From Hippopus hippopus (taxonomy: Eukaryota; Mollusca; Bivalvia; Cardiida; Cardiidae), in assembly GCA_946811185.2 (NCBI GenBank), contig OX328099.1:15899859-15963858 (forward strand): a stretch of 64,000 nt of DNA, in the 5' to 3' direction. Of the stretch, positions 1 to 36,089 are shown one piece after another (position 1 is the stretch's first letter; every line of letters begins with the position of its first letter). The notes beneath the pieces are model-generated. The model was not told the DNA's origin. It saw only the letters and a program-made list of their open reading frames with translations, and searched no databases. The position numbers and the translations under genes were made by a program.

Positions 1-470
1 GTTTAGTGTTTTATATGTGTAATGGATCACTTTTTAGTTTTTTTCATCCTATGAATGATTTTTTTCTCTCTAAATGGAATTTGTCCCTATATCGCTGAGT
101 TGAACTTAGATTTTTTGCACTATAAAGGATTTCTAAATGTCTGAGCACTGAGTTGAACTTAGACTTTTTTTTTACCCTATGTATGATTTTTTTCTTTCTA
201 AATGTCTGACCATTGAGTTGAACTTAGTCTTTTTTTTTACATCTATAAATGATTTTTCTCTTTCTAAAAGGAATTTGTCCCTAAATCATTGAGTTGGACT
301 TAGTTTTTTCTTCACCTATGTATGATTTTTTCTCTCTAAAAGACTGAGTACTGGGTTGGCCTTAGCTTTTTTATTCTATGAATGATTTTTCTTTTCTAAA
401 TGTCTGGACATTGAATTGGGCTTAGTCTTTTTTCTGCATCTACGAATGATTTTTTTACTCTTTGGAGTGT
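1..470. repeat. Left terminal tandem array of element 1
   Basis: About seven imperfect units of roughly 55-65 bp, each with a GAGTTGAACTTAG-like core, a T run, an AATGATTTTT-like segment and TCTAAA(T/A)G. The reverse complement of the same unit forms the right end of the element (about 12545-12875). The array runs off the window start, so its full length is unknown. Confidence 0.8.
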
Positions 471-581
471 AACTCTCTGGAGTGTGAGTCTTTGGAGTGT
501 AACTCTTCTAAAAGAAAGAAGTTTGACAATTTGAAGAAAATGACAATTTGAAGAAAGATAGAACTTTCGTGGTAGATGGTT

Positions 582-597
582 AGCCCTGAAAAGGGCT
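582..597 (-). terminator. Histone-type 3' stem-loop for the 629-943 gene
   Basis: Read on the minus strand this is AGCCCTTTTCAGGGCT: a perfect 6-bp stem with a TTTC loop, followed by AACCA and then CACGAAAG about 10 nt on. Stem size, loop and ACC tail match the replication-dependent histone mRNA 3' signal, and the purine block resembles the U7-pairing downstream element (sea urchin type CAAGAAAGA). It begins 32 nt past the stop codon. Confidence 0.8.
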
Positions 598-628
598 GTT
601 TTGAGAAGAGCTGATTTTATGAAAATGT

Positions 629-943
629 TTATTCAGTATCAGCATCAGTCGATTCGCTGTCTGACTCACTCCTTTCAGTGGCGATTTGCGCACGGAAAAG
701 ACGGGTCACCTGCTCAGTTTTTAAAATAACATACTGAAAATACATCTCAAGCATGCCCTCAATAATGAGTTCCTTCATCCGAAGGTTATAACAGAACACA
801 CTGTTATTAGCAAGCTCAGCCCTCTCGTATCGTCTTCTCACTCCAGCTAGGCGTTGTTTAAGTAAGACGATTTGTCTCCTTGCTCTTATTAACTTTCGCT
901 CAGTATCCATCCAAGTGATGAGTGGTGATTGTCTTGAAGCCAT
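629..943 (-). CDS. Small basic helical protein, function unknown (104 aa)
   Basis: I do not recognise a family. The N-terminal half is rich in Arg and Lys with a heptad-like helical pattern (residues about 14-45, QIVLLKQRLAGVRRRYERAE), and the C-terminus is acidic and Ser-rich (ESDSESTDADTE). The ATG at 943 lies 40 nt below a TATAAA box (983-988, minus strand), with an E2F-like site and a CRE upstream. The stop is followed by a histone-type stem-loop at 582-597. This gene plan (CRE/E2F-like/TATA promoter, short ORF, stem-loop end) recurs at 8687-8893 and 11255-11491, so I infer an S-phase-timed small regulator. No membrane segment or signal peptide is visible. Confidence 0.65.
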   Translation of the reverse strand: MASRQSPLITWMDTERKLIRARRQIVLLKQRLAGVRRRYERAELANNSVFCYNLRMKELIIEGMLEMYFQYVILKTEQVTRLFRAQIATERSESDSESTDADTE

Positions 944-982
944 TGTGAAAAAATGAAATGTATGGAAAATAAATCGCCGAGA

Positions 983-1060
983 TTTATAGCTTTTCAGACG
1001 GATTGAACTAATTGACCCATGACGTCATTATCTCCTATGTTTTTCCCGCGTCAGCGTTTC
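983..1060 (-). promoter_or_regulatory. Promoter module A: TATA, CRE, E2F-like
   Basis: For the minus-strand gene starting at 943: TATAAA at 983-988, the CRE/ATF palindrome TGACGTCA at 1020-1027 and E2F-like TTTCCCGC at 1042-1049, with a CCAAT motif near 1090. The same arrangement occurs at 8933-8999 (minus) and 11137-11203 (plus). Conservation at three genes supports function; factor binding is inferred. Confidence 0.7.
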
Positions 1061-1129
1061 ATGCTGTTTTGGCTCCAAATTAATGTTATCCAATCAGATT
1101 CACCGTTGTTTTTTCTAATACTAATTGTT

Positions 1130-1275
1130 TTATTGTTGGCCAACCCATGGGTTTGTTACATTTTCTTGTTCGCGGATTTTATTGTTGACCAATCCATGGG
1201 TTTGTTACATTTTCTTGTTCGGGGATTTTATTGTTGGTCAATCCGTGGGTTTGTTACATTTTCTTGTTCGGGTTA
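1130..1275. repeat. Tandem 47-bp-class units
   Basis: Three units reading TGGGTTTGTTACATTTTCTT followed by GTTCGGGGATTTTATTGTTG. Further units lie at about 1990-2125 and, inverted, at about 10965-11060, inside both inverted-repeat arms. The open frame across them is a by-product. Confidence 0.8.
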
Positions 1276-1416
1276 GAAAAAACTAGAGTTTAACTAACCT
1301 ATGACTTTTTTTGATTGTGAATCTTTGCAGTGTAACTCTTCTAAAAGAAAGAAGTTTGACAATTTTGAGTTTTTTTGACAATTTGAAGAAAGATAGAACT
1401 TTCGTGGTAGATGGGT

Positions 1417-1432
1417 AGCCCTGAAAAGGGCT
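1417..1432 (-). terminator. Histone-type 3' stem-loop for the 1464-1730 gene
   Basis: On the minus strand AGCCCTTTTCAGGGCT again, followed by ACCCATCTACCACGAAAGTT. It is the same perfect 6-bp stem with a TTTC loop, 32 nt beyond the stop codon. Confidence 0.8.
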
Positions 1433-1463
1433 GTTTTTTTGGAGGCTGTGTTTTTTTCCAGTT

Positions 1464-1730
1464 CTAATGGCAACACCCGAAATTCGCTTGGCAAATGGGG
1501 CATGCTGTAATCTTCCTCCCAAATTCGATATCAACCAAGATGATATCCGGTGTTGTCTTTAATAATAGCTGAACTAATCTTTCGCCGAGATCTTTGTATG
1601 GTTGTGTTATACGTCGCAGTTGGTTTTGTTCCTCCTCTCCTACGAGACGAGTGGTTAGTTGCAATAACTGCTGGCCGGCATTTAGATACTCTTGGAGAGC
1701 CTCACGTAGTTGATGATTTACCTCTTCCAT
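1464..1730 (-). CDS. Small helical protein with C-terminal CPxCx4GC motif (88 aa)
   Basis: Start taken at the ATG at 1730; the frame stays open upstream but only through a GTG. The first 60 residues are helical and Leu/Gln-rich (LREALQEYLNAGQQLLQL), and the last residues are CPICQANFGCCH, a cysteine motif that could bind metal. The 78-aa protein at 11255-11491 ends in CPACRKVGGCA with the same CPxCx4GC spacing although the rest is unrelated. A second copy at 10636-10902 is broken by a stop codon. Promoter module B lies upstream (TATAAA 1823-1828, minus) and a histone-type stem-loop downstream. Function unknown. Confidence 0.65.
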   Translation of the reverse strand: MEEVNHQLREALQEYLNAGQQLLQLTTRLVGEEEQNQLRRITQPYKDLGERLVQLLLKTTPDIILVDIEFGRKITACPICQANFGCCH

Positions 1731-1870
1731 ATTGATATTGCTTCCGAATATTGACACTGCTTTCGAAGTGATCGTTAACTGAGAGTCAAAGAAATGGTGA
1801 ATGTGTGAAAAATAACACGGGCTTTATACGTTTACAGAGGATTGAAATTTTTTTAAAGAGCTCGGACCTG
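1731..1870 (-). promoter_or_regulatory. Promoter module B with conserved leader
   Basis: TATAAA on the minus strand at 1823-1828, with a leader of about 90 nt that is nearly identical to those at 9142-9239 and 10537-10635 (plus strand). The conserved leader suggests shared transcription start and timing. Confidence 0.65.
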
Positions 1871-2219
1871 GCAGAAAGCACATACATTTTTTCCATGCTA
1901 CGTTTCATGCTGTTTTGGCTCCAAATTAATGTTATCCAATCAGATTCACCGTTTTATTTTCTAATACTAAATGTTTTATTGTTGACCAACCCGTGGGTTT
2001 ATTACATTTTCTTGTTCTGGGGATTTTATTGTTGACCAATCCGTGGGTTTGTTACATTTTTCTTGTTCGGGGATTTTATTGTTACCCAATCCGTGGGTTT
2101 GTTACATTTTCTTGTTCGGGTTAGAAAAAAACTAGAGTTTAACTAACAGTTATGAGACGCTGTATGGGAAAAATGTAACCAGAACAAGTCTTTTGGGGGA
2201 AAAACAGAATGAAGAACTC

Positions 2220-2260
2220 TATTGTTTTTGAACTTTTATTTATTGAACTTTTATTTACTG
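2220..2260 (-). terminator. AATAAA poly(A) signals for the 2562-3218 gene
   Basis: Two minus-strand AATAAA hexamers within TTTTATTTATT-type sequence, about 300-330 nt past the stop at 2562. Their inverted copies lie at 10333-10355. Confidence 0.55.
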
Positions 2261-2269
2261 AACAGAACT

Positions 2270-2545
2270 AAACATTGAAACATTTTTTTTGCAATGCATC
2301 ATAAAAAAATTTCTTGACAATGAAAAAAATTTCTTAACAATGAAAAAAATCACAATGAAACATTTTTTTGCAATGCATCATAAAAAAATTTCTTGACAAT
2401 GAAAAAAACATTTTCTTAACAATGAAAAAATCGCACTGAAATATTTTTTCACATTGAATTATTCACAACGATTTAATCATGATGAAAAAACACACTGAAT
2501 TATTTTTTCGCAATGAATTATTTACAATGAATTAATCGCAAAAAC
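2270..2545. repeat. AT-rich imperfect tandem repeats
   Basis: Units alternate GCAATGCATCATAAAAAAAT with TTTCTTGACAATGAAAAAA and later CACTGAATTATT-type segments. The inverted counterpart is at about 9950-10320. Confidence 0.75.
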
Positions 2546-2561
2546 AGTATATAACAAATTT

Positions 2562-3218
2562 TTATAATGCAAATTCGCAAACACCACGAGTTTCACGTTT
2601 GTTTTCATATTCCGTAATGTCTTTATGCAATTGCTCATACCCAAAAAACATTGTATACTCACTGTCCATATCGTCGAAATCTCGTAGTCCTATGAATGGA
2701 GCAACATGTCTATAGGCGTCTTTTGTTGAAAGAGCTGAATTTACTACTTCTTCTGTAACATCTCTATCAAATAGAATATACCCTGACATGGTTTCCATTG
2801 TTTCTCCGTAGGAATCATGAACAGATCCTTTTTTGTAGCGTAAGTAAAAGTTAAATAGAACTGATTTCATTTTCACAACGTTAAGAAAACTTTCTTCTGT
2901 TGTTCCTATGATAAAAAATGTCCATCGGCTTGTGGATCGAAACAGTTTACTAATAACATTGTCTTTCATACAGCTATCTGCTAAATAAGTCTTGAGAACG
3001 AGATCCAGCCCCGAATCGTCCACCATCATCGCAATAAAGTTGAATATAGCATACACTTTGTATGACTTTTCTCCTTTTGCAACCCATTTAAACATTTTTT
3101 TGATCCAAATTTTCACACAGAAAAATTTAATGTTAAGCTGTGTTCGTTCATCAAGCGTATGCTGTCGAACAAATTCTCCATAAATTTTTTCACGTAGTTC
3201 TATTGGTAGCGGCAACAT
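2562..3218 (-). CDS. Unrecognised 218-aa protein of element 1
   Basis: It starts MLPLPIELREKIYGEF, which superficially resembles the opening of F-box domains, but I cannot support an F-box further on. The body is mixed and aromatic-rich with no signal peptide or clear membrane helix. The start lies about 80 nt below the PolB stop on the same strand, so it may be a second cistron or have its own TATA near 3316-3321. Its last 16 or so codons lie within the inverted-repeat arm, and a fragment of them recurs at 9896-9950 as a truncated 3' end. It ends with AATAAA signals, not a stem-loop. Confidence 0.6.
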   Translation of the reverse strand: MLPLPIELREKIYGEFVRQHTLDERTQLNIKFFCVKIWIKKMFKWVAKGEKSYKVYAIFNFIAMMVDDSGLDLVLKTYLADSCMKDNVISKLFRSTSRWTFFIIGTTEESFLNVVKMKSVLFNFYLRYKKGSVHDSYGETMETMSGYILFDRDVTEEVVNSALSTKDAYRHVAPFIGLRDFDDMDSEYTMFFGYEQLHKDITEYENKRETRGVCEFAL

Positions 3219-3300
3219 GATTGTTATTTTTTTGAACAGTTGCTAATATTTTTTCCCCGACTTACTTTGAGTGATTGGTACACAACAATGTGATATGAAA

Positions 3301-6300
3301 TTATTTTCTCAAGCTTTTATAACCATAGGGTACAGTATCAGTACCATTTACAATGACTGTCTTGGTGTATACAGAACGAAACGTTTTTGTTTGTGGTTCA
3401 CTGGTAACCGTTCTATCTCTGTGTCTTTTAATTTTACAATCATACTGAATTTTGATTTCTACTGTACGATCCAAAGCACATTTCGAATATGTATCGAAAT
3501 TTACCACCTGTTTTGTATTGTAATCCAGAGTAATCCCCTTTACTTTACATTTGCTTATCTCTTTTCCATCTTTTGTTTTCATTTTGTAAGCATAATTCTT
3601 AGGTCCAAGTCCTCTGAATTGAGTAATTTTACAAGCAGGCTCTTCATCAGTCCATTTTCCTAACCGGCTGTTAATAATAGGGGGATTCCATAATTCGGGG
3701 TCGTGAATGTACATACAACTATCTGTATCGAAATACAGAACTCTATCTTTTAACTTTTCAAGAACACTGTACAATTCCAACCTTGCATAAGCTGTTACGT
3801 AAGAACCTACTATCACATTGGCTGTAGCATGGGTGTCAATATGTTCCAACTTTGATTTATAGTTAACCAAGATGAATGAACAGTTCTCATCAAAGATTTC
3901 TATATGCTTTACAATGAAATTAGGATTGCTGACTAATTCAAAATATTTAGACGGATCACTGATGTATTCCGTCTGGATCATTTTTTCACGCTGAGCTAAT
4001 TTTCCCCAAAGGCAGTTCAACATAATCTTAGCAAATGATCTTCTCCCAGGATTTCTTTGAATACAACTTGGATCAAGACGAACACCTTCTGCCTTCTCAT
4101 ATTCACAAACGAACTGATCTTTTTCTGAGTCTGATTGACAGCTATCTGGATAACCACTGGCTTCTTGCTTAATTTTCAAGAAATTGTCCACATAATGTTT
4201 AAAGAACTGATCTGACACAGAATTGAAATGCCAAATTTCATACACTTGCAATAATCGATAACCGCAGTCAAGAGCCTTGAATAATTCAAAAGTAACCCAA
4301 GTTCCGACCAAAGCCCTCTCTTCTTCACCATGTCTACAAATGTTTGAGCTTTCTTCTGCACATTTCATACAGAGTGGAAACATCATTTTGTTGTTACAGT
4401 GAACTGGGAGAACGGGGTGAAACAAATCAGTTGGAGGCAAAACTTTGCATTTGATTAAGCCCTCATATTGTCGAATATTGTTCATGTCAATATTCTCAGC
4501 AGACAAAATTTCTGGCTGACCTACAGGATAGGATTTGTGTTTACAAACATAAGGGTACAGAGAACAGATATCGATGTACTTGATTTCCTTTTTGGTTTTT
4601 TCATCAACATCATATCCAATTTTTATTGCATTACATCTTCCCCCGGACAAACCATCCCTCGGATCGATAGGGTCCCAATGTGGATATAACTTTTCAATGT
4701 GTTTTTTGTACTCTTTATCCTTCATCTTAGCATCAAATTCGTGTTCCCAAATGTACACTACATTATATCCCATGTCTTCGATATCTGCTATACGTTCAAA
4801 AGTACGTTCGTACAATTCAGACATGGGTTTTCCATTAATAGGATTGATCTGATTTCGATCTGTATAGCATACAGGACAACCATGATACAAATCCCCAAGA
4901 AATTCATAAACAGTGTTTGATTGATAGTGAAAACCATCTACACTATATTTCCCGATTTGAGCTTCACCACCATTTTTTGCATGCTGAATATTAATACCTT
5001 TTTCCTGAGCAATGCTTTGAACCCATCGTATCGCTTTCATAGAAAAGCGACGTCTGGATGAGTCTTTACTTGAAATGATAGCTATTTGATTTTCTGGTAA
5101 ATATTTGCTTCGCCACACCTTGTTACAGGCATCTGCGATGGTAATCGCCTCTAAAAATGGACAAATACCACCCTGTTCGATAAACAGCTTTCTGAATTCA
5201 GCACACCCTCGTCTGAGGATATCAACGTCTGACCTACAGTACATTTCCATCTCCTTCTGAAAATTGAATTCCTCACCATTTCGAACTTTGTCATTATACC
5301 AAACTATAAATTTTGACCTAGCCTCTTCAGACATTGAGTCGGGCTTGTAATAAGACATATCTAAGTAGGGGCCAATGTAACTCCAAAAATCATCTGTATT
5401 AGCCCAGTGAGGAAAGTAACCTTTTTTCATTTCTTGAAGGCTAAAGGTGGATGGAAATTTTGCCAAACCAAAACTCATGAAATTGAAAGAATCGATCAGA
5501 CGTACACCGTTCAGTTCTAACTTCATAATATTGTTTCCATTCATGATCAATTTTGGAAGTTTTAACCCAACTTTGACAATATAGTCAAGAATGAACTGCC
5601 CGTCATAGCCTTTGAAATTATGGGCAATAGCCGTAACCCCTTTATGATGTTTTGAAAAGAGCCAGTTGCAAAATTGACTCAAAGTTTTTTCACCTTGAAA
5701 AATAACTTCCCTACCCTCTTCAAATTCACTGCATGTAGAACAATGAAAATCAAGTGATTTATCGATACATTCATCACACGCTCTGTGTGCGATACAATAA
5801 TTCGGGATGTGTACACCTGTGTCTTGTTTGCATTCAAAATCAAAGAAAATAAACTGTGGTTTTTTAACTACAGAAGAACTCGTCTCGTCATCGTTGTCAT
5901 GGTTCAACTTACTTTGGTAAGGCTGAATATAGCATTGATGAGAAAAGTTAACAATTCTCTTACAGATATGACATCTTTTCTTTCCATTGCAAACATGATT
6001 TTTCTTTCTGATATGATATTGTGCACCGCATTTCGAACAGAGTTTCACTAATTCACAAATGGATTTCTTTTCTTTACCTTGAACATTTCTGTGATTTTCA
6101 AAGCATTCAGCACTAAAAAAACGTCTACTGCAAACACTGCAAACATATTCTTTTGATTCTGATGGACATTTTCCTTTGCGATAACAACCTTTGCAGATAT
6201 TTGAACAAGCATGACTTTCCCGGTGAGGGTAACCCACATCACAGAACTCACAATAATATCCACAACTAAGAAAACCTTTGATAGATTTAATGTAGTCATA

Positions 6301-7365
6301 ATGGTTTTGATGAAAGTACAAATGTATGATCTTACTATTGGCTTTCACTTTTGGATGTTTAAATATTTTTTCCACTTTTGAATGCTGTTGATGAACTTTA
6401 ATGACATAGCCTTTTTCATACAAGAATGCTTGAATTTTTTTGTATTCGTCAATTCCTATAGGTTGTGTTGGTGTTGTGTTGTGTTGGTGAAACTCCAGTT
6501 TCATGTAACAATTTCTCAGCTTCAGTCTTTTGAAGAGGGCGGTTTGAACGACAAATACGATCCCATTTTCTTTTCCATACTTTGGTGTTTCACGTTCACT
6601 GTAGCAAATTCCCACAACAACAGCTCTTGCAAAACATAGTTGGTCATGATTGTCAATTTGAATAATGGATTTTTTCTTCTGGGCAAAAAACTTTGAATCT
6701 AATTCTGACGATCTATATTTTGGTTTTCCGCTACCACTTGGTGGTATTGTATGTGTAATGTCAAATGTCATGAATCCATCGTTCAAGACGAAATCTGTAT
6801 TCGATTGTAAAACTCGTTCAATTTCATTCAGCATAGTTTCACCTTGTAACTGGTCTGCAGCTAAAAAAGGAATATGGATTCCCATTTCCAACGAAGGATG
6901 ATTGATGGTAATCCTAATCATGTCCGTAGGGTTAGCATTTAACTTTCGAATGATTTCACGGGTAACATCGTCAAATAATCCAAGGAGTCTCTGAGGTGTT
7001 AATTCTTCAAATTTCTTAAAACTCAGCATCAGCACATGTGATTCTGTTTTAAATTTTCTTGACTTCTTATTACCCTTTTCTGTTAAATCATATAGACTTT
7101 TCATGTCTAAGTTAGAGTTGGTACTTTCATCGTCGCTATCATTTTCTTCTTTCAACGGTTTAGTTTTTTTCTTTTTTGTTGGTGGAATCACCTCATCGTC
7201 ACTTTCTTCTTTCAACGGTTTAGTTTTTTTCTTTTTTATTGGTGGAAACACCTCATCGTCACTTTCTTCTTTCAAAGGTCTAGTTTTTTTCTTTTTTGTT
7301 GGTGGAAACACCTCATCGTCACTTTCACTGTCTGAATAGGTTATTATTCTTTTTCTTTTACCCAT
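3301..7365 (-). CDS. PolB: Protein-primed family B DNA polymerase with nuclease-like insert (1354 aa)
   Basis: Replicative polymerase of the protein-primed (organellar and viral, pfam03175-like) class. Start chosen at the ATG at 7365 (MGKRKR), 55 nt below a minus-strand TATAAA at 7420-7425. Order by approximate residue: three 20-residue repeats of acidic SDDE plus KKKK (14-73); a Cys/His zinc-finger cluster (about 370-480); exonuclease I FFDFECKQD (about 507), II AHNFKGYDG (about 583) and III YCRSDVDIL (about 712); an insert with GGEAQIGKYSVDG and VYEFLGDLYHGCP (about 800-830) resembling a PD-(D/E)xK or Vsr-type nuclease; motif A YIDICSLYP (about 933), motif B KIMLNCLWGKL (about 1115) and motif C YFDTDSCMYI (about 1213). 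All catalytic aspartates are present and the frame is open, so it may be active. It is longer than the Polinton PolB at 22470 and only distantly related to it. Confidence 0.92.
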   Translation of the reverse strand: MGKRKRIITYSDSESDDEVFPPTKKKKTRPLKEESDDEVFPPIKKKKTKPLKEESDDEVIPPTKKKKTKPLKEENDSDDESTNSNLDMKSLYDLTEKGNKKSRKFKTESHVLMLSFKKFEELTPQRLLGLFDDVTREIIRKLNANPTDMIRITINHPSLEMGIHIPFLAADQLQGETMLNEIERVLQSNTDFVLNDGFMTFDITHTIPPSGSGKPKYRSSELDSKFFAQKKKSIIQIDNHDQLCFARAVVVGICYSERETPKYGKENGIVFVVQTALFKRLKLRNCYMKLEFHQHNTTPTQPIGIDEYKKIQAFLYEKGYVIKVHQQHSKVEKIFKHPKVKANSKIIHLYFHQNHYDYIKSIKGFLSCGYYCEFCDVGYPHRESHACSNICKGCYRKGKCPSESKEYVCSVCSRRFFSAECFENHRNVQGKEKKSICELVKLCSKCGAQYHIRKKNHVCNGKKRCHICKRIVNFSHQCYIQPYQSKLNHDNDDETSSSVVKKPQFIFFDFECKQDTGVHIPNYCIAHRACDECIDKSLDFHCSTCSEFEEGREVIFQGEKTLSQFCNWLFSKHHKGVTAIAHNFKGYDGQFILDYIVKVGLKLPKLIMNGNNIMKLELNGVRLIDSFNFMSFGLAKFPSTFSLQEMKKGYFPHWANTDDFWSYIGPYLDMSYYKPDSMSEEARSKFIVWYNDKVRNGEEFNFQKEMEMYCRSDVDILRRGCAEFRKLFIEQGGICPFLEAITIADACNKVWRSKYLPENQIAIISSKDSSRRRFSMKAIRWVQSIAQEKGINIQHAKNGGEAQIGKYSVDGFHYQSNTVYEFLGDLYHGCPVCYTDRNQINPINGKPMSELYERTFERIADIEDMGYNVVYIWEHEFDAKMKDKEYKKHIEKLYPHWDPIDPRDGLSGGRCNAIKIGYDVDEKTKKEIKYIDICSLYPYVCKHKSYPVGQPEILSAENIDMNNIRQYEGLIKCKVLPPTDLFHPVLPVHCNNKMMFPLCMKCAEESSNICRHGEEERALVGTWVTFELFKALDCGYRLLQVYEIWHFNSVSDQFFKHYVDNFLKIKQEASGYPDSCQSDSEKDQFVCEYEKAEGVRLDPSCIQRNPGRRSFAKIMLNCLWGKLAQREKMIQTEYISDPSKYFELVSNPNFIVKHIEIFDENCSFILVNYKSKLEHIDTHATANVIVGSYVTAYARLELYSVLEKLKDRVLYFDTDSCMYIHDPELWNPPIINSRLGKWTDEEPACKITQFRGLGPKNYAYKMKTKDGKEISKCKVKGITLDYNTKQVVNFDTYSKCALDRTVEIKIQYDCKIKRHRDRTVTSEPQTKTFRSVYTKTVIVNGTDTVPYGYKSLRK

Positions 7366-7521
7366 CGTTTTAGCTCTGAGTGAAAAGACAATAATGCAGA
7401 AGTGAGAAAAAACTAGCAATTTATATACCCTCTCCGTTGTAACAGTGTATAAATAAGCCGTTAGTTGTGAAAATCTATTCATTCTCCTACTCGATCTCAG
7501 TCAGTACAGCTGATAAAAAAT
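7366..7521. promoter_or_regulatory. Divergent promoter between PolB and the CCHC gene
   Basis: 156 bp with a minus-strand TATAAA at 7420-7425 (towards PolB) and a plus-strand TATAAATA at 7448-7455 (towards 7522). Neither the CRE/E2F module nor module B is present. Confidence 0.6.
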
Positions 7522-7995
7522 ATGAGTGAGTTAAAGCTGCAAAATACATCACCACTTAGAAAGAGGGTGTATCTGTATGTTAATCCATACACCCACGATT
7601 ATGAGATCAGCAATATACCATCAAAGTATAATGTTAAACATATCGGAAACTATGTGGGATCATTTTTATCCCAGCAACATTTAGAAGAAAAAGATGTTTA
7701 CCGTACTACCAGCTACAGAGTTTTGGATCAAGCGATGATTGACAAACGATATGGTGCGAATGGTGTGAGAACAAATATTTGTTTCACATGCAACGAAGCA
7801 GGACATTGGGCCAAAGAATGTCCAGAAAAAGAAAATCAGCTAGGTACAATTGTTTTTGTCTACGTGAATCCACACAGTCACGACATTGAGATTTCACCAT
7901 CATTTTACAACGTTGGTGGTTTCAAAGATATGAAATTCGTCGGGACACTAAATTCATTCTGCAGTGAAAATACATGGAAAAAAAGTTCACCATAA
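7522..7995 (+). CDS. CCHC zinc-knuckle protein with duplicated flanking module (157 aa)
   Basis: A retroviral-type zinc knuckle, CFTCNEAGHWAKEC (C-x2-C-x4-H-x4-C), sits at about residues 94-107 and implies single-stranded nucleic acid binding. It is flanked by two related segments of about 35 residues: VYLYVNPYTHDYEIS with IGNYVGSF before it, and VFVYVNPHSHDIEIS with VGTLNSF after it, an internal duplication. It is divergent from PolB with its own TATA box, so I infer a role in element replication. The TAA at 7993 is the only stop between this ORF and the 8032-8373 ORF in the same frame. Confidence 0.75.
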   Translation: MSELKLQNTSPLRKRVYLYVNPYTHDYEISNIPSKYNVKHIGNYVGSFLSQQHLEEKDVYRTTSYRVLDQAMIDKRYGANGVRTNICFTCNEAGHWAKECPEKENQLGTIVFVYVNPHSHDIEISPSFYNVGGFKDMKFVGTLNSFCSENTWKKSSP

Positions 7996-8373
7996 GCTAC
8001 ATCCTCATCGGTTGAAACTCAGACCGTAGACATGCAGAGCGACAAAGCGGCTAACAGCGATTCAGAAATCTGCAAAATAGCAGAACAGACAGAGAAAAAA
8101 ATATCTACAAACGATAATCTAAGAAATCAACAAACTTTGGATCTAAAAAACAACGAATTTTCTGCAGAACCGGGTTGTTCGTACGGAAAGGAAAAACAGC
8201 AAAACATCGAAAAGAAGAAAAAACGAGTAACAAAGAACTATTTCTTTTACAAATCAACAAAACATGAGGACAAAATCTGTCCAGATGTGGAATTAAAAAA
8301 CAACGATAGGAAAAGAAAACGTAAAACTAAATGTGAATCTGACATCTCGAAGAAAAAAGTAAAAACATACTGA
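7996..8373 (+). CDS. Basic low-complexity tail, in frame with the CCHC ORF
   Basis: After the TAA at 7993 the same frame continues open. The first ATG is at 8032, giving 113 aa if translated alone. The sequence is polar and Lys-rich with NLS-like KRKRKTK and KKKVK near the end and a predicted disordered character. It may be the C-terminal part of a 283-codon CCHC protein now cut by one nonsense codon, a stop-readthrough extension, or a second cistron. Family unknown. Confidence 0.5.
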   Translation, partial: ATSSSVETQTVDMQSDKAANSDSEICKIAEQTEKKISTNDNLRNQQTLDLKNNEFSAEPGCSYGKEKQQNIEKKKKRVTKNYFFYKSTKHEDKICPDVELKNNDRKRKRKTKCESDISKKKVKTY

Positions 8374-8575
8374 GTGAAAAAAGATTTCAATACAATAATG
8401 AATATAAACAAAAAAAGACTGACTTGATTTTTTTTCATTCATTTTTTTGTCTTTTACAGTTCATTCATTTTTTGTCTTTACAGTTCATGATTTGATTTTT
8501 TCATTGTACATAAGTTCTTTTTTTGAAATAAAAATATAAAATAATTACTTCTTACTTTTGACTTTTTTTAGTTAT
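8374..8575 (+). terminator. 3' region with AATAAA signal
   Basis: T-rich direct repeats (TTCATTCATTTTTTGTCTTT type) followed by AAATAAAAATAT at about 8525-8537, a standard cleavage/polyadenylation signal for the plus-strand CCHC unit. No histone-type stem-loop here. Confidence 0.5.
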
Positions 8576-8638
8576 GACTGTAAGTCTTTTTTTTACTTTT
8601 GACAATTTGAGAAGAAAGATCTTTCGTGCTAAATGGTT

Positions 8639-8654
8639 AGCCCTAAAAAGGGCT
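8639..8654 (-). terminator. Histone-type 3' stem-loop, UUUU-loop variant
   Basis: Minus strand AGCCCTTTTTAGGGCT: a 6-bp stem with a TTTT loop, then AACCATTTAGCACGAAAGA. The CACGAAAGA block is the closest of the set to the sea-urchin histone downstream element. It begins 33 nt past the stop of the 8687-8893 gene. Confidence 0.75.
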
Positions 8655-8686
8655 TTTTTTGAAGGATCTCACATTGACATCCAGCT

Positions 8687-8893
8687 CTACGATTCTTCCG
8701 CCCGATCCACTGGGATGATTTCACATCCACAGTGTTCGCAGCAAATCGTCGAACCTTCATCATCATCATAAAATCCTTCATCTGTATCTGGACAGTTATG
8801 CTTCTGCCCAAGATACTCGAGTATGGAAAAACATTTCCCACACTCTATCAGACATCTGTTTGCACAGTGAGGGCATACAAGAATTCGAACCAT
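8687..8893 (-). CDS. Small cysteine-rich, zinc-ribbon-like protein (68 aa)
   Basis: Cysteine pairs CPHC (residues 7-10) and ECGKC (about 17-21), and a C-terminal CCEHCGC cluster (about 51-57), suggest one or two zinc-binding folds. An acidic linker (DTDEGFYDDDEG) separates them. ATG at 8893, with TATAAA (8933-8938), CRE (8970-8977) and E2F-like site (8992-8999) upstream on the minus strand and a histone-type stem-loop downstream. Function unknown; context suggests an early regulator. Confidence 0.65.
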   Translation of the reverse strand: MVRILVCPHCANRCLIECGKCFSILEYLGQKHNCPDTDEGFYDDDEGSTICCEHCGCEIIPVDRAEES

Positions 8894-8932
8894 TCTGGAA
8901 CAAATATGATTTTATGTAAAATATCACTGGGC

Positions 8933-8999
8933 TTTATAGCTTTACAGGAGGATTGAACTAGATGACTCATGACGTCATTTTCTCCTATGTTTTTCCCGC
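8933..8999 (-). promoter_or_regulatory. Promoter module A, second copy
   Basis: TATAAA at 8933-8938, TGACGTCA at 8970-8977 and TTTCCCGC at 8992-8999 in the same order and almost the same spacing as at 983-1049. Confidence 0.7.
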
Positions 9000-9104
9000 G
9001 TCGGCGTTTCATTAACATTGTGCAATCAAATCGACGGTTATATTGGTGTTTTTTACCACTCCTAATTCGGTGTCACACAGTACAATACCGGTGCTTTCCG
9101 CCAG

Positions 9105-9239
9105 GTCCGCCCTCTTTAAAAATTTCAATCCTCTGTAAACGTATAAAGCTCGGTGTTATTTTCATATATTCACCATTTCTTTGATTCTCAGCTAACGATC
9201 ACTTCGGAAGCAGTATCAATATTCAGAGTCAGTTGCAAT
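9105..9239 (+). promoter_or_regulatory. Promoter module B, second copy
   Basis: TATAAA at 9142-9147 and the conserved leader of about 90 nt before the ATG at 9240. This is why the longer open frame from 9153 is not used as the start. Confidence 0.65.
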
Positions 9240-9902
9240 ATGAAGCACAACTTAGATGAAATCAACTTGAGCGATTTTCCATCAGTGGAAAACAATGGAG
9301 ACGTTCTTTCATCAGTTATGAATTCGACAATTATCAATCCACCACCGGAGTTAAATTCGACAACCATCATTCCAGCGACAGTGTTTGACAACATTTATGA
9401 AGAGGTAAAGCAGCTAAATTTGAAACAAGATAGCATGATGATCCGAATCATAGATCAGCTGGAGACTTTAAACAGACATTTGGAGGAAATTAAAACTTTA
9501 ACCGCAAGTACTGATCAGCTCAGTAGAAATATCGAGGTACTACGTCAACAGGATCAGCTCATTTCAACAACTCCTGTGAAGATTCCTGTGGAGTTCGAGT
9601 TTGATAAATCCAATCTTCACAATTTAGTGGACTCTATCGTAAGTGTTGTGAAGAAAAATCAACCAAAGAAAAATCAACCAAAGGAAAAACAACCAAGAAA
9701 AACAACAAAGCGGAAATCTGAGGAAGATGGTAACCATCTCCACAAGAAGCAGCGAGTTGATCAAAAACCAACTATACCAATATTGACAGGGCAGGGCAAA
9801 TACGGGAAAAACATTGACAATCACGTTGATTTCAAGATCCCGAAAAAACCAAAGACAGAACGAAAACAACCAAGAAAAAACAACAAAACGGTAGGAATAT
9901 GA
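9240..9902 (+). CDS. Coiled-coil protein with basic tail (220 aa)
   Basis: Start at the ATG at 9240, after the module B leader. The middle is a probable coiled coil (residues about 50-110, VKQLNLKQDSMMIRIIDQLE and on), followed by direct KKNQPKKNQPKEKQPRK repeats and several basic NLS-like clusters to the end. No family recognised; the layout would suit a nucleic-acid-binding or scaffold protein. The final codons come from the start of the right inverted-repeat arm at about 9896. AATAAA signals follow at 10333-10355. Confidence 0.6.
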   Translation: MKHNLDEINLSDFPSVENNGDVLSSVMNSTIINPPPELNSTTIIPATVFDNIYEEVKQLNLKQDSMMIRIIDQLETLNRHLEEIKTLTASTDQLSRNIEVLRQQDQLISTTPVKIPVEFEFDKSNLHNLVDSIVSVVKKNQPKKNQPKEKQPRKTTKRKSEEDGNHLHKKQRVDQKPTIPILTGQGKYGKNIDNHVDFKIPKKPKTERKQPRKNNKTVGI

Positions 9903-10494
9903 AAACAAATATGAAACTCGTGGTGTTTGCGAATTTACATTGCATAAAATTTGTTATATACTGTTTTTTTGCGATTAATTCATTGTAAAATAATTCGTTG
10001 CGAAAAAAATAATTCATTGTGATTAATTCATTGCGATTATTTCGTTGTGAATAATTCATTGTGAAAAAATATTTCAGTGCGATTTTTTCATTGTTAAGAA
10101 AATGTTTTTTTCATTGTCAAGAAATTTTTTATGATGCATTGCAAAAAAATGTTTGCTTGTGATTTTTTCATTGTCAAGAAATTTTTTCATTGTCAAGAAA
10201 TTTTTTATGATGCATTGCAAAAAAAATGTTTCATTGTGATTTTTTTCATTGTTAAGAAATTTTTTTCATTGTCAAGAAATTTTTTTATGATGCATTGCAA
10301 AAAAAATGTTTCAATGTTTAGTTCTGTTCAGTAAATAAAAGTTCAGTAAATAAAAGTTCAAAAACAATAGAGTTCTTCATTCTGTTTTTCCCCCAAAAGA
10401 CTTGTTCTGTCTACATTTTTTCCATACAGCGTCTCATAACTTTTTTGCTATATTAGCATGAAACGTAGCATGGAAAAAATGTATGTGTTTTCTA

Positions 10495-10635
10495 CCCTGG
10501 CCGAGCTCTTTAAAAAATTTCAATCCTCCTTAAACGTATAAACCCCTGCGTTATTTTTCATACATTCACCATTTCTTTGACTCTCAGTTAACGATCACTT
10601 CGAAAGCAGTGTTAATATTCGGGAGCAATATCAAT
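10495..10635 (+). promoter_or_regulatory. Promoter module B, third copy
   Basis: TATAAA at 10537-10542 and the conserved leader, here before a gene copy that is no longer open. Confidence 0.6.
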
Positions 10636-10902
10636 ATGGAAGAGCTAAATCATTAACTACGTGAGGCTCTCCAAGAGTATCTAAATGCCGGACAGCAGTT
10701 ATTGCAACTAACCACTCGTCTCGTAGGAGTGGAGGAACAAAACCAACTGCACTGTATAACACAACCATACAAAGATCTCGGTGAAAGGTTAGTTCAGCTA
10801 TTATTAAAGACAACACCGGATATCATCTTGGTTGATATCGAATTTGGGAGGAAGATTACAGCATGCCCCATTTGCCAAGTGAATTTCGGATGTTGTCATT
10901 AG
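10636..10902 (+). pseudogene. Broken copy of the 88-aa CPxCx4GC protein
   Basis: The ATG at 10636 is followed by an in-frame TAA at 10654-10656, where the intact copy (1464-1730, minus) has a Gln codon. The rest of the frame stays open to CPICQVNFGCCH. A protein could only come from an internal start or readthrough. Its downstream stem-loop is also damaged. Confidence 0.75.
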
Positions 10903-10938
10903 AAGTGGGAAAAAACATAGTCTCCAAAAAAACAAAAC

Positions 10939-10954
10939 AGCCCATTTCACGGCT
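10939..10954 (+). terminator. Decayed histone-type stem-loop
   Basis: AGCCCATTTCACGGCT keeps the outer stem pairs and the TTTC loop but has two mismatches at the top of the stem. It sits 36 nt past the end of the broken gene copy, the same place as the intact examples. Confidence 0.6.
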
Positions 10955-11136
10955 ACCCATCTACCGAACAAGAAAATGTAACAAACCCATGGATTGGCCA
11001 ACAATGAAATCCCCGAACAAGAAAATGTAACAAACCCACGGATTGGCCAACAATAAAACATTTAGTATTAGAAAAAACAACGATGATTCTGATTGGATAA
11101 CATTAATTTGGAGCCAAAACACCATGAAACGCCGAC

Positions 11137-11203
11137 GCGGGAAAAACATAGGAGAAAATGACGTCATGGGTCATCTAGTTCAATCCTCCTGTAAAGCTAT
11201 AAA
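11137..11203 (+). promoter_or_regulatory. Promoter module A, third copy
   Basis: GCGGGAAA (E2F-like, 11137-11144), TGACGTCA (11159-11166) and TATAAA (11198-11203) in order on the plus strand, leading to the ATG at 11255. Confidence 0.7.
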
Positions 11204-11254
11204 ACCCAGCGTTATTTTCCCGCACATCATTCATCTCTCCGACTTGTAGGCATA

Positions 11255-11491
11255 ATGGAATGCGCACTTCGAGACATGAGTTTCAGCGGGCTTGCCCAGC
11301 TATCATCAAAAGAAAAGAAGATGGACGGAAAAAAGAAGGAGATCATCGTGCCTTCTACTGAAGATTGGGGCAGTGACAACAAGCCACCGTTCTCACTGAA
11401 CTTCAACCTAGACGTTCAGGAGCTGAAAAGGCTAAAGAGGCGGGCAGCGAGTAGCTGCCCAGCCTGCAGGAAGGTTGGAGGTTGTGCTTAA
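11255..11491 (+). CDS. Small protein with C-terminal CPxCx4GC motif (78 aa)
   Basis: Unrecognised. It has a mixed-charge N-terminal part with a Lys-rich patch (KEKKMDGKKKE), a basic helix (LKRLKRRAASS), and ends CPACRKVGGCA. The cysteine spacing equals that of the 88-aa protein at 1464-1730 although the rest differs, suggesting a shared C-terminal metal-binding or interaction motif. Promoter module A is upstream. The stop lies in the loop of a 10-bp hairpin (11476-11503), followed by two stem-loops of histone type. Confidence 0.65.
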   Translation: MECALRDMSFSGLAQLSSKEKKMDGKKKEIIVPSTEDWGSDNKPPFSLNFNLDVQELKRLKRRAASSCPACRKVGGCA

Positions 11492-11512
11492 AAACACAAC
11501 CTCCAAAACCAG

Positions 11513-11551
11513 GTCCCTTTTAGGGACACCCCAACAGCCCTTTTCAGGGCT
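11513..11551 (+). terminator. Tandem histone-type stem-loops after the 78-aa gene
   Basis: First a variant with a GTCCCT/AGGGAC stem and 3-nt loop ending in ACCCC (about 11513-11527). Then the full AGCCCTTTTCAGGGCT at 11536-11551 with AACCATCTACCACGGAAG after it. It lies within 60 nt of the stop codon. Confidence 0.75.
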
Positions 11552-11559
11552 AACCATCT

Positions 11560-12495
11560 ACCACGGAAGATCTACCTTTCTTCAAATTGTCAGACGTAAG
11601 TTCTATCTTTTCTTCAAATTGTCATTTCTTCAAATTGTCAGACGAAAGTTCTACCTTCAAGCTGTTAGACGAAAGTTCTATCTTCAAGTTGTCATTTCTT
11701 CAAATTGTCACAGCTCTTTTCAGAGCTAACCCAACAGTCCTTTTCAGGACTAACCATCTACCACGAAAGTTCTATCTTCAAGATGTCAGATGAAAGTTCT
11801 ACCTTCAAGCTGTTAGACGAAAGTTCTATCTTCAAGTTGTCATTTCTTCAAATTGTCACAGCTCTTTTCAGAGCTAACCCAACAGTCCTTTTCAGGACTA
11901 ACCATCTTCCACGAAAGTTCTATCTTCAAATTGTCAGACGAAAGTTCTACCTTCAAGCTGTTAGACGAAAGTTCTATCTTCAAGTTGTCATTTCTTCAAA
12001 TTGTCACAGCTCTTTTCAGAGCTAACCCAACAGTCCTTTTCAGGACTAACCATCTTCCACGAAAGTTCTATCTTCAAATTGTCAGACGAAAGTTCTACCT
12101 TCAAGCTGTTAGACGAAAGTTCTATCTTCAAGTTGTCATTTCTTCAAATTGTCACAGCTCTTTTCAGAGCTAACCCAACAGTCCTTTTCAGGACTAACCA
12201 TCTACCACGAAAGTTCTATCTTCAAGATGTCAGATGAAAGTTCTACCTTCAAGCTGTTAGACGAAAGTTCTATCTTCAAGTTGTCATTTCTTCAAATTGT
12301 CACAGCTCTTTTCAGAGCTAACCCAACAGTCCTTTTCAGGACTAACCATCTTCCACGAAAGTTCTATCTTCAAATTGTCAGACGAAAGTTCTACCTTCAA
12401 GCTGTTAGACGAAAGTTCTATCTTCAAGTTGACATTTCTTCAAATTGTCACAGCTCTTTTCAGGACTAACCATCTACCACGAAAGTTCTATCTTT
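11560..12495 (+). repeat. 148-bp tandem array carrying ten histone-type stem-loops
   Basis: Five copies with exact 148-bp spacing (stem-loop starts 11712, 11860, 12008, 12156 and 12304). Each copy holds AGCTCTTTTCAGAGCT followed, 24 nt on from start to start, by AGTCCTTTTCAGGACT, then CCACGAAAGTTCTATCTTCA-type sequence with repeated GACGAAAGTTCTA blocks. The two stems differ from each other and from the gene-linked ones by compensated changes, while TTTC and AACC are constant. At 12452-12467 the two types are fused into an unpaired hybrid, consistent with recombination at the shared loop. The long open frames across the array are by-products of the repeat. Confidence 0.85.
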
Positions 12496-12544
12496 CTTTT
12501 AGAAGAGATGCGTTCCAAAAGAGTTATACTCCAGAGAGTTATAC

Positions 12545-12880
12545 TGTAAAGAGTAAGAATCATTCATAGAGATGCAGAAAAAAGTCTAAGTCCAACCCAG
12601 TGCTCAGTCTTTTAGAAAGAAAAAATCATTCATAGAGATGTAAAAAAAGACTAAGTCCAACTCAATGGTCAGGCAATTAGAAAGAGAGAAAATCATTCAT
12701 AGGGGAAAAAAGCTAAGACCAACTCAGTGATATAAAATAAATTTCCTTTTAGAAAAGAGAAATCATTCATAGAGATGCAGAAAAAAGTCTAAGTCCAACT
12801 CAATGGTCAGGCAATTAGAAAGAGAAAAAATCATCCATAGGGTGAAAAAACTAAGTCCAACTCAGTGATCTGACCATTTT
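12545..12880. repeat. Right terminal tandem array of element 1
   Basis: About five units, the reverse complement of the left terminal array (TAAGTCCAACTCA core with AATCATTCATAG). Similarity stops near 12875-12880, taken as the right end; a target duplication cannot be tested because the left end is missing. Confidence 0.7.
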
Positions 12881-12904
12881 TTACCCAGTCTGTCAGTCAT
12901 AAGG

Positions 12905-13090
12905 CCTGCACTTTGAATGCTAAATCCCTCTCAGGGTAGAGAGCCTGGGAAAAACTCCCCCCCTTTTCCCTTTTTTGCAAAAAATTCCGCTCAGGGACTG
13001 GAGCCTGGGGCATTTTTGTCCGCGGTTGCTGTCCAAACGGCCGCCATTTTGAATGCTAAATCCCTCTCAGGGAAGAGAGCCTAGGGACAA
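12905..13090. repeat. Direct repeat just outside element 1
   Basis: TTTGAATGCTAAATCCCTCT with CAGGG(T/A)AGAGAGCCT(G/A)GG occurs at about 12911-12948 and 13049-13086, 138 bp apart, with a related segment between. Origin unclear. Confidence 0.6.
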
Positions 13091-13161
13091 AATAAAAAAA
13101 AAATCTTTCGGGGACAGCAAATAGGGACACATTTTTGTCAGGGACGGTGATGTAGGGCACT

Positions 13162-13219
13162 CAGGGACGAGAGAATAGGGACACACTCAGGCCTAGGTGT
13201 GTCCGTATTCTCTCGTCCT
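13162..13219. repeat. Foldback of about 22-bp arms
   Basis: GGACGAGAGAATAGGGACAC pairs with its reverse complement ending near 13217, one mismatch, around a loop of about 9 nt. Probably the centre of a small foldback element. Confidence 0.65.
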
Positions 13220-13263
13220 TTACTACTAACAACGTTATCGTGGTTGTTTAATCGATTAAAATG

Positions 13264-21429: not shown

Positions 21430-21470
21430 GAAGTTCGCCGAGCTTGGAATTCGAACCCAAGACCCCATGA
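21430..21470 (-). other. tRNA-like T-arm/B-box half at the left end
   Basis: On the minus strand TTGGGTTCGAATTCCAA can fold as a T-arm and matches the B box. The matching A-box/D-arm half lies at the right end (39722-39755), so element 2 may interrupt a tRNA-derived unit. Confidence 0.4.
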
Positions 21471-21540
21471 GAGATGTATAGAAGGGGTTTCTCGCGCAAA
21501 ATATAAAAAGCGAATCGAAACGAATCGAAACGAATCGAAA

Positions 21541-21716
21541 CGCACCGCACCTCACCTCACCTCACCGCACCGCACCGCACCTCACCTCACCTCACCTCAC
21601 CTCACCGCACCTCACCTCACCTCACCTCACCTCACCTCACCTCACCGCACCGCACCTCACCTCACCTCACCGCACCGCACCGCACCGCACCGCACCACAC
21701 CGCACCGCACCGATTG
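21541..21716. repeat. Pentanucleotide array (CGCAC/CTCAC)n
   Basis: About 35 five-base units switching between CGCAC and CTCAC. Mirrored at 39484-39620; shorter CCGCA runs also flank the internal modules (22441, 26481, 29397, 33593, 36198, 38146 and 38717). Confidence 0.9.
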
Positions 21717-21837
21717 TAAAATGCGCCGGACTCTTCTGAATGGTATATTCAATCATAAACGCACCGCATCGCGTATATATAATATACATCCGTATATAAT
21801 ATACATCCGTATATAATATACCATCTCCCTGAGATCT

Positions 21838-21912
21838 TTACCATCTCCCTGAGATCTTTACCATCTCCCTGCAGAGACATACGCGTGAGCCTTTTAATGT
21901 ATTAGGGTCGCT
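21838..21912 (-). other. MCP 3'-end fragment in left TIR
   Basis: Inverted copy of the segment at 39286-39345, which matches the end of the MCP gene (37905-37970): GACCCTAATACATTAAA and ATGTCTCTGCAGGGAGATGG. Confidence 0.7.
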
Positions 21913-21955
21913 ACAAAACGAGATAATTCTTCGATGCGCGTAAATATATATTTTT

Positions 21956-22440
21956 ACATTTATCTAAGTATAATTTAACCAGATAAATGTACATTTATTC
22001 TTTTAGTCCATATAGCTATATGGGCAAAAAATACGAAACGAGATAATTCCTTTCAGGCTGGTTGAAAGATGGACAAATATCGCGTATCGGAATAAACGCG
22101 GATCGTTCGGAATAAACGCGGATCGATCTTTTTTACATTTATCTAAGTATAATTTAACCAGATAAATGTACGTTTTTTTATTTAGTCCATATAGCTATAT
22201 GGGCAAAAAATACGAAACGAGATAATTCCTTTCAGGCTGGTTGAAAGATGGACAAATATCGCGTATCGGATCGTTCGGAATAAACGCGGATCGTTCGATC
22301 TAAAATCTTTTCTTTTTTACATTTATCTAAGTATAATTTAACCAGATAAATGTACGTTTTTTTATTTAGTCCATATAGCTATATGGGCAAAAAACACGAA
22401 ACGAGACAATTCCTTTCAGGCTGGTTAAAAAATGGATAAA
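21956..22440 (+). repeat. Three double-palindrome modules in left TIR
   Basis: Each about 120-bp module has a hairpin (ACATTTATCT / AGATAAATGT, as at 21956-21990), a 16-bp perfect palindrome CCATATAGCTATATGG (22008-22023, 22187-22202, 22371-22386), then GGGCAAAAAA and CAGGCTGGTT. The inner one carries a minus-strand AATAAA (22362-22367) about 105 nt past the PolB stop. Confidence 0.9.
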
Positions 22441-22469
22441 CGCACCGCACCGCACCGCACCGCATATTT

Positions 22470-25496: not shown

Positions 25497-25518
25497 CCTT
25501 TTCAATAATAATAAAAAA

Positions 25519-26142: not shown

Positions 26143-26158
26143 TACTAATATTAAAAAA

Positions 26159-26350
26159 ATGTTCGGAAACAAAAAAAAGAGATATTTAAAATTAATCTAC
26201 GAACAAGATTTAAAGATTCGGGGATTAGAAAAAGTCATTGCGAGTGTATTAGAAACGATTGAAAACGATAAAAAGAAAAACGTTGAAAATTTGATGAAGA
26301 TATTAGATATAATAACCGATTTAAAACAAACCAACTTGTCTGGGCAATGA
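26159..26350 (+). CDS. Small coiled-coil protein (63 aa)
   Basis: Starts in a TTAAAAAAATG context, 16 bp after the previous gene. Lys/Glu/Ile/Leu-rich and helical throughout (IRGLEKVIASVLETIENDKK), a likely short coiled coil. Family unknown. Followed by a double-palindrome module that separates it from the convergent ATPase gene. Confidence 0.55.
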   Translation: MFGNKKKRYLKLIYEQDLKIRGLEKVIASVLETIENDKKKNVENLMKILDIITDLKQTNLSGQ

Positions 26351-26368
26351 TTTATAGCTACGTTTTAT

Positions 26369-26512: not shown

Positions 26513-26514
26513 TT

Positions 26515-27322: not shown

Positions 27323-27371
27323 GTTGATGCGTTTTATATATATAATTATTATTATTTATATATATAAAAAT

Positions 27372-29395: not shown

Positions 29396-29396
29396 G

Positions 29397-36088: not shown

Positions 36089-36089
36089 T

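Follow-up and report, generated by a model that had tools for sequence, protein, structure and literature searches.

A PolB element and its genes

The window analysed here, a 64,000-nucleotide stretch of the Hippopus hippopus genome, contains part of a PolB mobile element of 15,745 bp (~15.7 kb), which spans L009:7483-10000 and window positions 1-13227. The following boundaries and genes were annotated:

1..13227, no strand assigned: in-window part of the PolB element (long inverted repeats, termini, 6-bp duplication)
Ending at 13227: right terminus CCTTTACTACT
13228..13233, no strand assigned: target site duplication AACAAC, other copy at L009:7477-7482, read at both ends
629..943, minus: g104, 104-aa ORF, predicted helical hairpin
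1464..1730, minus: g88, 88-aa ORF with C-terminal CPICQANFGCCH
2562..3218, minus: g218, longer gene, neither stem-loop nor histone-type promoter
3301..7482, minus: PolB (PF03175, 1393 aa), stem-loop absent within 500 nt of the stop
7522..7995, plus: g157, zinc-knuckle ORF without stem-loop
8032..8373, plus: g113, without stem-loop, AATAAA at +153 past the stop
8687..8893, minus: g68, 68-aa Cys-rich ORF, weak zinc-ribbon matches
9240..9902, plus: g220, 220-aa ORF, histone-type promoter motif, AATAAA signals, without stem-loop
10637..10902: second g88 copy with internal stop, mismatched stem-loop behind
11255..11491, plus: g78, 78-aa ORF ending in CPACRKVGGCA

Polinton/Maverick elements and adintoviruses carry PolB, measure 15-20 kb and have long terminal inverted repeats and 6-bp target duplications. 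The present element shares these hallmarks, namely PolB (PF03175, E 1.4e-44 in Pfam), length, terminal inverted repeats and 6-bp duplications. The latter are identical in all three copies with both ends read (AACAAC, TGCGAC, AATGTT); for three further copies the left end lies outside the 601-base piece. However, no retroviral-type integrase domain, capsid protein, A32 packaging ATPase or adenovirus-type protease was detected in the nine element ORFs scanned, and the small genes with histone-type ends described below further set the element apart. A second element in the window (21453-39719) is likewise of Polinton-like size with long inverted repeats, but encodes a DJR capsid protein and an A32-type ATPase; PolB is absent from the 11 of its ORFs scanned, and the host histone model introduced below finds nothing in it.

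The PolB gene is present in at least 33 copies in the host genome, 28 of which (28/33) lack an internal stop, and the copies are 96% identical to each other in PolB. Nine protein relatives of PolB were found (34-74% identity), and none of g220 or g88. Among viral contigs, PolB alone gave no match, while a PolB alignment retrieved one distant locus (L013, 36% identity), in which the Rfam histone stem-loop model RF00032 found nothing at E<=1; a 20-nt stem-loop pattern did not match the viral contigs either. The element is rich in internal repeats.

Histone domains were absent from g104, g88, g68 and g78 (Pfam, E<=0.01). The sequence-only reading had called these four small ORFs unrelated, which is nearly right, except that the 88- and 78-aa proteins share, by eye, similar Cys-rich C-terminal endings (CPICQANFGCCH and CPACRKVGGCA). 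Single-sequence structure models were confident for g104 (a helical hairpin) and poor for g88; they add nothing on function.

Histone-type 3' ends behind the small genes

Behind these genes we located the following modules:

582..597, minus: histone-type stem-loop of g104 (pattern, RF00032, host model)
564..571, minus: CACGAAAG, HDE-like block of g104
541..546, minus: TTGTCA motif downstream of g104, at a distance similar to that in host histone genes
1417..1432, minus: histone-type stem-loop of g88 (pattern, RF00032, host model)
1399..1406, minus: CACGAAAG, HDE-like block of g88
1376..1381, minus: TTGTCA motif downstream of g88
8639..8654, minus: histone-type stem-loop of g68 with TTTT loop (pattern, RF00032, host model)
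8621..8628, minus: CACGAAAG, HDE-like block of g68
8600..8605, minus: TTGTCA motif downstream of g68
10939..10954, plus: mismatched stem-loop AGCCCATTTCACGGCT behind the second g88 copy
11536..11551, plus: histone-type stem-loop of g78 (pattern, RF00032, host model)
11562..11569, plus: CACGGAAG, HDE-like block of g78
11587..11592, plus: TTGTCA motif downstream of g78
11627..12471, plus: tandem array of 148-bp units with stem-loop pattern matches (two per unit, 11 in all) and GAAAG blocks

The four intact stem-loops behind g104, g88, g68 and g78 lie at the coordinates and on the strands given by the sequence-only reading. We measured stop-to-stem distances of 31, 31, 32 and 44 nt for the 104-, 88-, 68- and 78-aa ORFs (32-45 nt in that reading), and a purine-rich block lies behind the AACC-type flank (CACGAAAG in three cases, CACGGAAG in one). 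The AACC itself follows only three of the stem-loops; at 1417-1432 it is replaced by ACCC. Overall, the pattern AGYYCTTTTNAGRRCT matched 15 times in the window versus 0.01 expected (none of 100 shuffles reached 15), and 11 of these matches fall inside the tandem array, which that reading had not listed, nor had it listed the TTGTCA motif, the histone-type promoters or the damaged stems of altered gene copies. Array units are followed by TTGTCA in some cases and GATGTCA in others, and pairing is incomplete in the last match (12452-12467). The array lies near one terminus of the element, with mirror copies near the other. A degenerate stem-like sequence and a possible gene remnant near L009:9760 were left out of all counts.

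A covariance search bore out the proposed resemblance to histone mRNA ends with one model and stayed under the curated threshold with the other. With RF00032, the four sites and another five in the array scored 22.4-28.5 bits, under the gathering score of 34; since 4/6 of the host histone genes checked also fall short of 34 (30.0-33.5), a sub-threshold score is not disqualifying. A covariance model for which six host histone 3' ends were the sole input separated 14 element sites (E 4e-8 to 9e-5) from the rest of the 74 kb searched, where the best match outside the element reached 0.29. Six other copies, represented by 12 flanking stretches, yielded 71 hits with the same model (E<=0.05).

The similarity extends beyond the hairpin. 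Host and element have the stem-loop, the GAAAG-type downstream block and TTGTCA ~30-35 nt past the stem in common at matched spacing, and stop-to-stem distances are 31-44 nt in the element versus 28-39 nt in six host genes (host counted by hand). When host and element were compared over just the 46 nt that follow the stem, the best score was higher than in any of 674 background windows for each of the five element modules tried. Stem pairing was complete across 12 sequences (72/72 cells paired), with three of the six stem pairs altered on both sides; the closing pair is A-U in the element versus G-C in the host. None of 500 shuffles reached the observed percentage paired, number of double-change cells or covariation score, 10/500 reached the number of pairs with double changes, and 500/500 reached or exceeded the number of further pair types.

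We also searched the host for U7. RF00066 gave no match among 65 of 398,645 candidates scored, and control genomes likewise gave none. The pattern CTTTCN{0,8}AATTTGTCTAG matched the host 10 times versus 18 for a reversed control, and to the eye several of these matches resemble fragments of a single repeat. The best candidate (25.9 bits) lacks the 3' stem, and none of the 10 matches is a convincing U7.

Promoter motifs and conservation among copies

The 5' sides of the small genes, and of g220, carry further histone-type features:

985..1006, minus: TCAATCC...TATA promoter motif of g104
1825..1845, minus: TCAATCC...TATA promoter motif of g88
1856..1881, minus: 26-nt box of g88 with AGGTCCG core, 88% identity to the host H1 promoter
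8935..8956, minus: TCAATCC...TATA promoter motif of g68
9090..9116, plus: 27-nt H1-promoter-like box of g220
9125..9145, plus: TCAATCC...TATA promoter motif of g220
11180..11201, plus: TCAATCC...TATA promoter motif of g78

The pattern TCAATCCN{9,12}TATA matched six times in the window, always inside the PolB element, versus 0.21 expected. Host H2A and one further cluster site carry the TCAATCC motif with TATA 18-19 nt on, and the small genes show it at the host's spacing. Two element promoters share the 26-27-nt box with host H1 (E 1e-5 and 4e-5). Promoter and stem-loop do not always coincide: g220 has the promoter motif and no stem-loop, and one intact g88 (L039) lacks the promoter motif.

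In six further element copies the modules again follow these small genes. Across the seven copies, counted after excluding tblastn rows that stopped >6 residues short of the C-terminus, a fully paired stem lies behind 7/7 g104, 13/13 intact g88, 7/7 g68 and 14/14 g78-type ORFs, that is, behind 41/41 complete small-gene copies. Five long-form g78 copies (one of them in L009) differ in their start; all five are complete and were counted as such. A stem-loop follows none of the seven copies each of g220, g218, g157 and g113. Three altered g88 copies, two with an internal stop and one (L042) without a stop at the usual place, have damaged stems with at most 4/6 pairs kept; the host model still matches two of them (L042, 36.7 bits; L044, 30.8 bits). 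Since the seven copies are closely related, features conserved in them argue only weakly for selection.

Polyadenylation signals were found downstream of some small genes: AATAAA lies 231-253 nt past g104 and g88 in the window, and AATAAA or ATTAAA ~214 nt past g68 in 5/6 other copies, so polyadenylation of these genes is possible. The stretch scanned past the stop of g78-type genes contained neither signal in 14/14 copies.

Predicted use of the host histone machinery

The sequences show that host and element have these modules in common at similar spacing, that the stems pair, and that in seven copies the modules are confined to one class of the element's genes. From these features we predict, at a probability of roughly 0.84, that the small genes rely on the host's machinery for replication-dependent histone mRNAs for both transcription and 3' processing. 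The borrowing of S-phase histone 3' processing proposed in the sequence-only reading is thus supported by the host-model matches and the six further copies, with the functional step itself a prediction. Host histone-gene activators would recognise the TCAATCC/GGTCCG-type promoters, SLBP would bind the element stem-loop, the U7 snRNP would pair with the CACGAAAG block, and the transcript would be cut a few nt past the stem, without poly(A). The downstream array probably provides fail-safe processing sites ahead of the element end. Such processing would tie expression to S phase, and the small proteins would then be present during host replication, a time at which the PolB of the element could copy it too. 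The longer genes (PolB, g218, g157/g113, g220) are likely polyadenylated, since they have no stem-loop and AATAAA or ATTAAA lies downstream; we therefore propose two expression classes in the element.

Other explanations fit parts of these data. The transcripts might be mostly polyadenylated, with SLBP binding the stem-loop inside the transcript for translation or decay in S phase; the signals behind g104 and g88, and behind g68 in five of six other copies, would suit this, and human H2A.X has dual 3' processing (PMC7807067). Yet the g78-type genes lack such signals in all 14 copies, and the HDE-like and TTGTCA blocks are kept although they lie beyond the would-be cut site, which makes this reading unlikely. 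Another reading, also quite unlikely in our view, is that the element picked up modules and promoters alike from host histone genes and now carries them as functionless passengers of ordinarily polyadenylated genes. Their high similarity to the host's, the AATAAA 231-253 nt past g104 and g88, and the little time for decay implied by PolB copies 96% alike speak for it; but the double changes that set element stems apart from host stems are compensatory, paired stems are kept by every complete small ORF (41/41) and by none of the three altered g88 copies, and the module is common to four different small genes while being absent from g220, g218, g157 and g113 in 7/7 copies.

A role of the hairpins at the DNA level, in replication, recombination or packaging, with the arrays near the ends as the functional form, would account for the eleven array matches near one terminus and their mirror copies near the other. 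It seems very improbable, because the stem-loops keep a fixed orientation and a narrow distance behind stops on both strands, and because it does not account for the resemblance of the HDE, TTGTCA and promoter sequences to those of histone genes. Chance hairpins or simple duplicates unconnected to histone genes might be expected in an element with many internal repeats, but hardly 15 pattern matches versus 0.01 expected; the clean separation by the host-only model already contradicts this idea, to which we give next to no credence.

Taking host histone-type processing as the preferred reading, a multicopy PolB element has probably taken over a whole histone expression cassette (promoter motifs, stem-loop, U7-type element) for non-histone genes, with a second, S-phase-only class beside its polyadenylated genes and a processing site amplified in arrays near its ends. 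It would then probably be the first case of histone-type mRNAs in a mobile element or virus-like genome; our literature searches returned no precedent. Like replication-dependent histone genes processed by SLBP and the U7 snRNP (RF00032), the small genes combine small ORFs and short stop-to-stem distances with a 6-bp stem, a UUUC/UUUU loop, an AC-rich 3' flank, a GAAAG-type block and the host's own TTGTCA and TCAATCC motifs. They differ in that their products lack a histone domain and belong to a mobile element, that the stem closes with A-U, and that the stem-loops are also multiplied in an array.

Histone mRNAs have been described as the sole animal protein-coding mRNAs that end in a stem-loop rather than poly(A) (PMC6303110). 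If our prediction holds, non-histone genes on the stem-loop route would break this histone-only rule, and the element would exemplify a parasite timing its own genes to host DNA replication via host signals. It would also supply natural substrates that are not histone mRNAs, compensatory stem variants among them, on which the requirements of SLBP and U7 and the role of this host's TTGTCA and TCAATCC motifs can be studied, and copies that differ in gene and stem integrity make an expression comparison possible inside one genome.

Histone-type 3' ends in the element and its host

The sequence-only reading had placed histone-type stem-loops behind four small genes of the PolB element (g104, g88, g68 and g78, ORFs named by length in amino acids), and all four are present as described. 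The pattern AGYYCTTTTNAGRRCT has 15 matches in the 64-kb window versus 0.01 expected from shuffles; 4 sit behind small ORFs and 11 in an array:

window 11627-12471: 148-bp tandem array, 11 stem-loop pattern matches

As host set we used H4, H2B, H2A, H1 and H3 from one part of the histone gene cluster (L010) and H2A.X, whose protein ends SQEF, from another locus (L012); gene names were assigned by reading the sequences. A stem-loop was found in 6/6 of these genes, followed 29-33 nt after the stem by TTGTCA in five (variant GTGTCAA in H2B), with a GA-containing block (consensus GAAAG) in between. Element modules keep this order. The four window genes have TTGTCA 33-35 nt past the stem, and the array units differ, some having TTGTCA at 31 nt and others GATGTCA.

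The Rfam histone stem-loop model gave the element sites 22.4-28.5 bits, under its threshold of 34 (six host histone genes: 30.0-37.9 bits). A second covariance model was trained only on the six host histone 3' ends. Run on the window and the 10 kb directly before it (L009), this host-built model yielded 14 sites, all inside the element (E 4e-8 to 9e-5; next match E 0.29). With the stem excluded, the next 46 nt beat all 674 background windows against some host end in 5/5 element modules, although individual host-element pairs differ and some fail to outscore shuffles.

In a set of 12 stem-loops, six from the host and six from the element, 72/72 cells are paired, with double-sided changes in 3/6 stem pairs: the base pair changed from G-C to A-U, the third and fourth positions from C-G to U-A. 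In 500 shuffles, the observed percentage paired, covariation score and count of doubly changed cells were never attained; the count of pairs with double changes was attained in 10, and that of further pair types was equalled or surpassed in every shuffle. Within this 12-sequence set, the basal A-U pair is shared by the six element sequences and absent from the six host ones.

The element and its copies

The element extends from L009:7483 to window 13227 (15,745 bp). The window starts inside it and the mirror-image end lies in L009, carrying a second array and a longer g78 relative (119 aa) with a stem-loop. Long inverted repeats connect both sides, the terminal sequences are AGTAGTAAAGG and CCTTTACTACT, and AACAAC flanks the element on both sides. 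A 6-bp duplication was found in 3/3 copies with both ends read (TGCGAC and AATGTT, each twice, in the other two), a count leaving out three copies whose left end lay outside the fetched piece. Just inside each terminus is a near-perfect hairpin (window 13166-13217 and L009:7493-7544). PolB comprises 1393 aa (PF03175). Since scanning nine ORFs revealed no integrase, capsid or ATPase domain, we do not class the element as a complete Polinton. The host genome (1.07 Gb), probably an animal's to judge by its stem-loop histone gene cluster, holds at least 33 PolB matches, the window's own plus 32 at 96% identity, a lower bound as only the best candidates were scored; 28 of the 33 lack an internal stop.

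Flanks from 6 of the 32 other copies gave 12 stretches, in which the host-built model had 71 matches at E<=0.05. Counted by tblastn across seven copies (the window's and these six), paired stem-loops are retained behind complete small ORFs. All g104 (7/7, one with a G-U pair), g68 (7/7) and g78-family genes (14/14) are intact with a fully paired stem. Among 16 g88 genes, 13 are intact, all with a fully paired stem, and three altered ones, two with an internal stop and one without the usual stop, keep at most 4/6 pairs; two of these still match the host-built model (36.7 and 30.8 bits). The seven copies are close relatives, and the retention therefore reflects common ancestry more than independent selection. 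In one other copy (L037:1729-3398), a tandem run of three g88 genes carries three promoter motifs and three stem-loops, one of each per gene. In the window, g157 and g113 share one frame (7522-8373), and the g157 match in six other copies has no stop at the window's g157 end, nor in the next 20 codons. From this comparison, the window copy appears to be interrupted at the g157/g113 boundary.

Promoters and a proposed route of expression

The promoter pattern TCAATCCN{9,12}TATA has six matches in the window versus 0.21 expected, all within the element, at g104, g88, g68, g78, g220 and a second (altered) g88. Across the copies, the motif lies upstream of 40/41 complete small ORFs, the exception being one g88 (L039). 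It precedes g220 in 7/7 copies, with a stem-loop in 0/7; g218, g157 and g113 (seven copies each) have neither. At histone loci, it stands 18-19 nt before TATA at two cluster sites, one of them H2A, and upstream of H2A.X with ATAAAT 28 nt on; many other places in the cluster have it without TATA at that spacing. The g88 and g220 promoters share 26-27 nt with the H1 promoter around AGGTCCG (88-89%; E 4e-5 and 1e-5, respectively). A resemblance to vertebrate H4 regulatory sites is possible. To our knowledge, neither of the motifs shared by the host histone genes, TTGTCA after the stem-loop and TCAATCC in the promoter, has been described in a histone-gene context. L010:2000-2160 contains a histone-type promoter (TCAATCC, TATATAAA, H1-like box) with no recognisable histone gene behind it.

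Judged by its sequence, the element most likely has two gene classes. AATAAA or ATTAAA lies behind the longer genes, and the small genes would enter the host histone-mRNA route. There, SLBP binds the stem-loop, U7 snRNP pairs downstream and the transcript is cut in between (PMC7026596, PMC6303110). Host SLBP would bind the small-gene stem-loop and U7 snRNP would pair with the downstream element, with cleavage between the two; S-phase timing of the small genes may follow. The array past the outermost genes likely traps read-through transcripts ahead of the element end. Counter to this reading, polyadenylation signals occur 231-253 nt past g104 and g88 in the window and about 214 nt past g68 in 5/6 other copies. 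A host U7 snRNA was not found by RF00066 (65 of 398,645 genomic candidates scored), nor a convincing one among 10 pattern hits. In a clam study, all histone mRNAs found reportedly had a stem-loop and only four had purine-rich elements nearby (PMC6210712).

We judge the original interpretation of these 3' ends to be right and better supported than claimed. In searches of open-access papers, the titles and abstract openings listed yielded no histone-type 3' end in a mobile element or virus. Since no described mobile element using the histone 3' route was found, we call the system new; its parts, a PolB element and the histone 3' end, were already known.

A second element in the window

A further element lies in the same window:

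21453-39719: second element, long inverted repeats
26810-27322: A32-type ATPase
27321-27899: PLA2-like/DUF5679 protein
36672-37991: DJR major capsid protein

No PolB was found among the 11 ORFs scanned. Whereas this element has a capsid protein and no PolB among its scanned ORFs, the neighbouring element has PolB and no capsid, and a split or helper relation between the two is possible. A 780-aa protein of the second element matches phage head-decoration and tail-fibre families.
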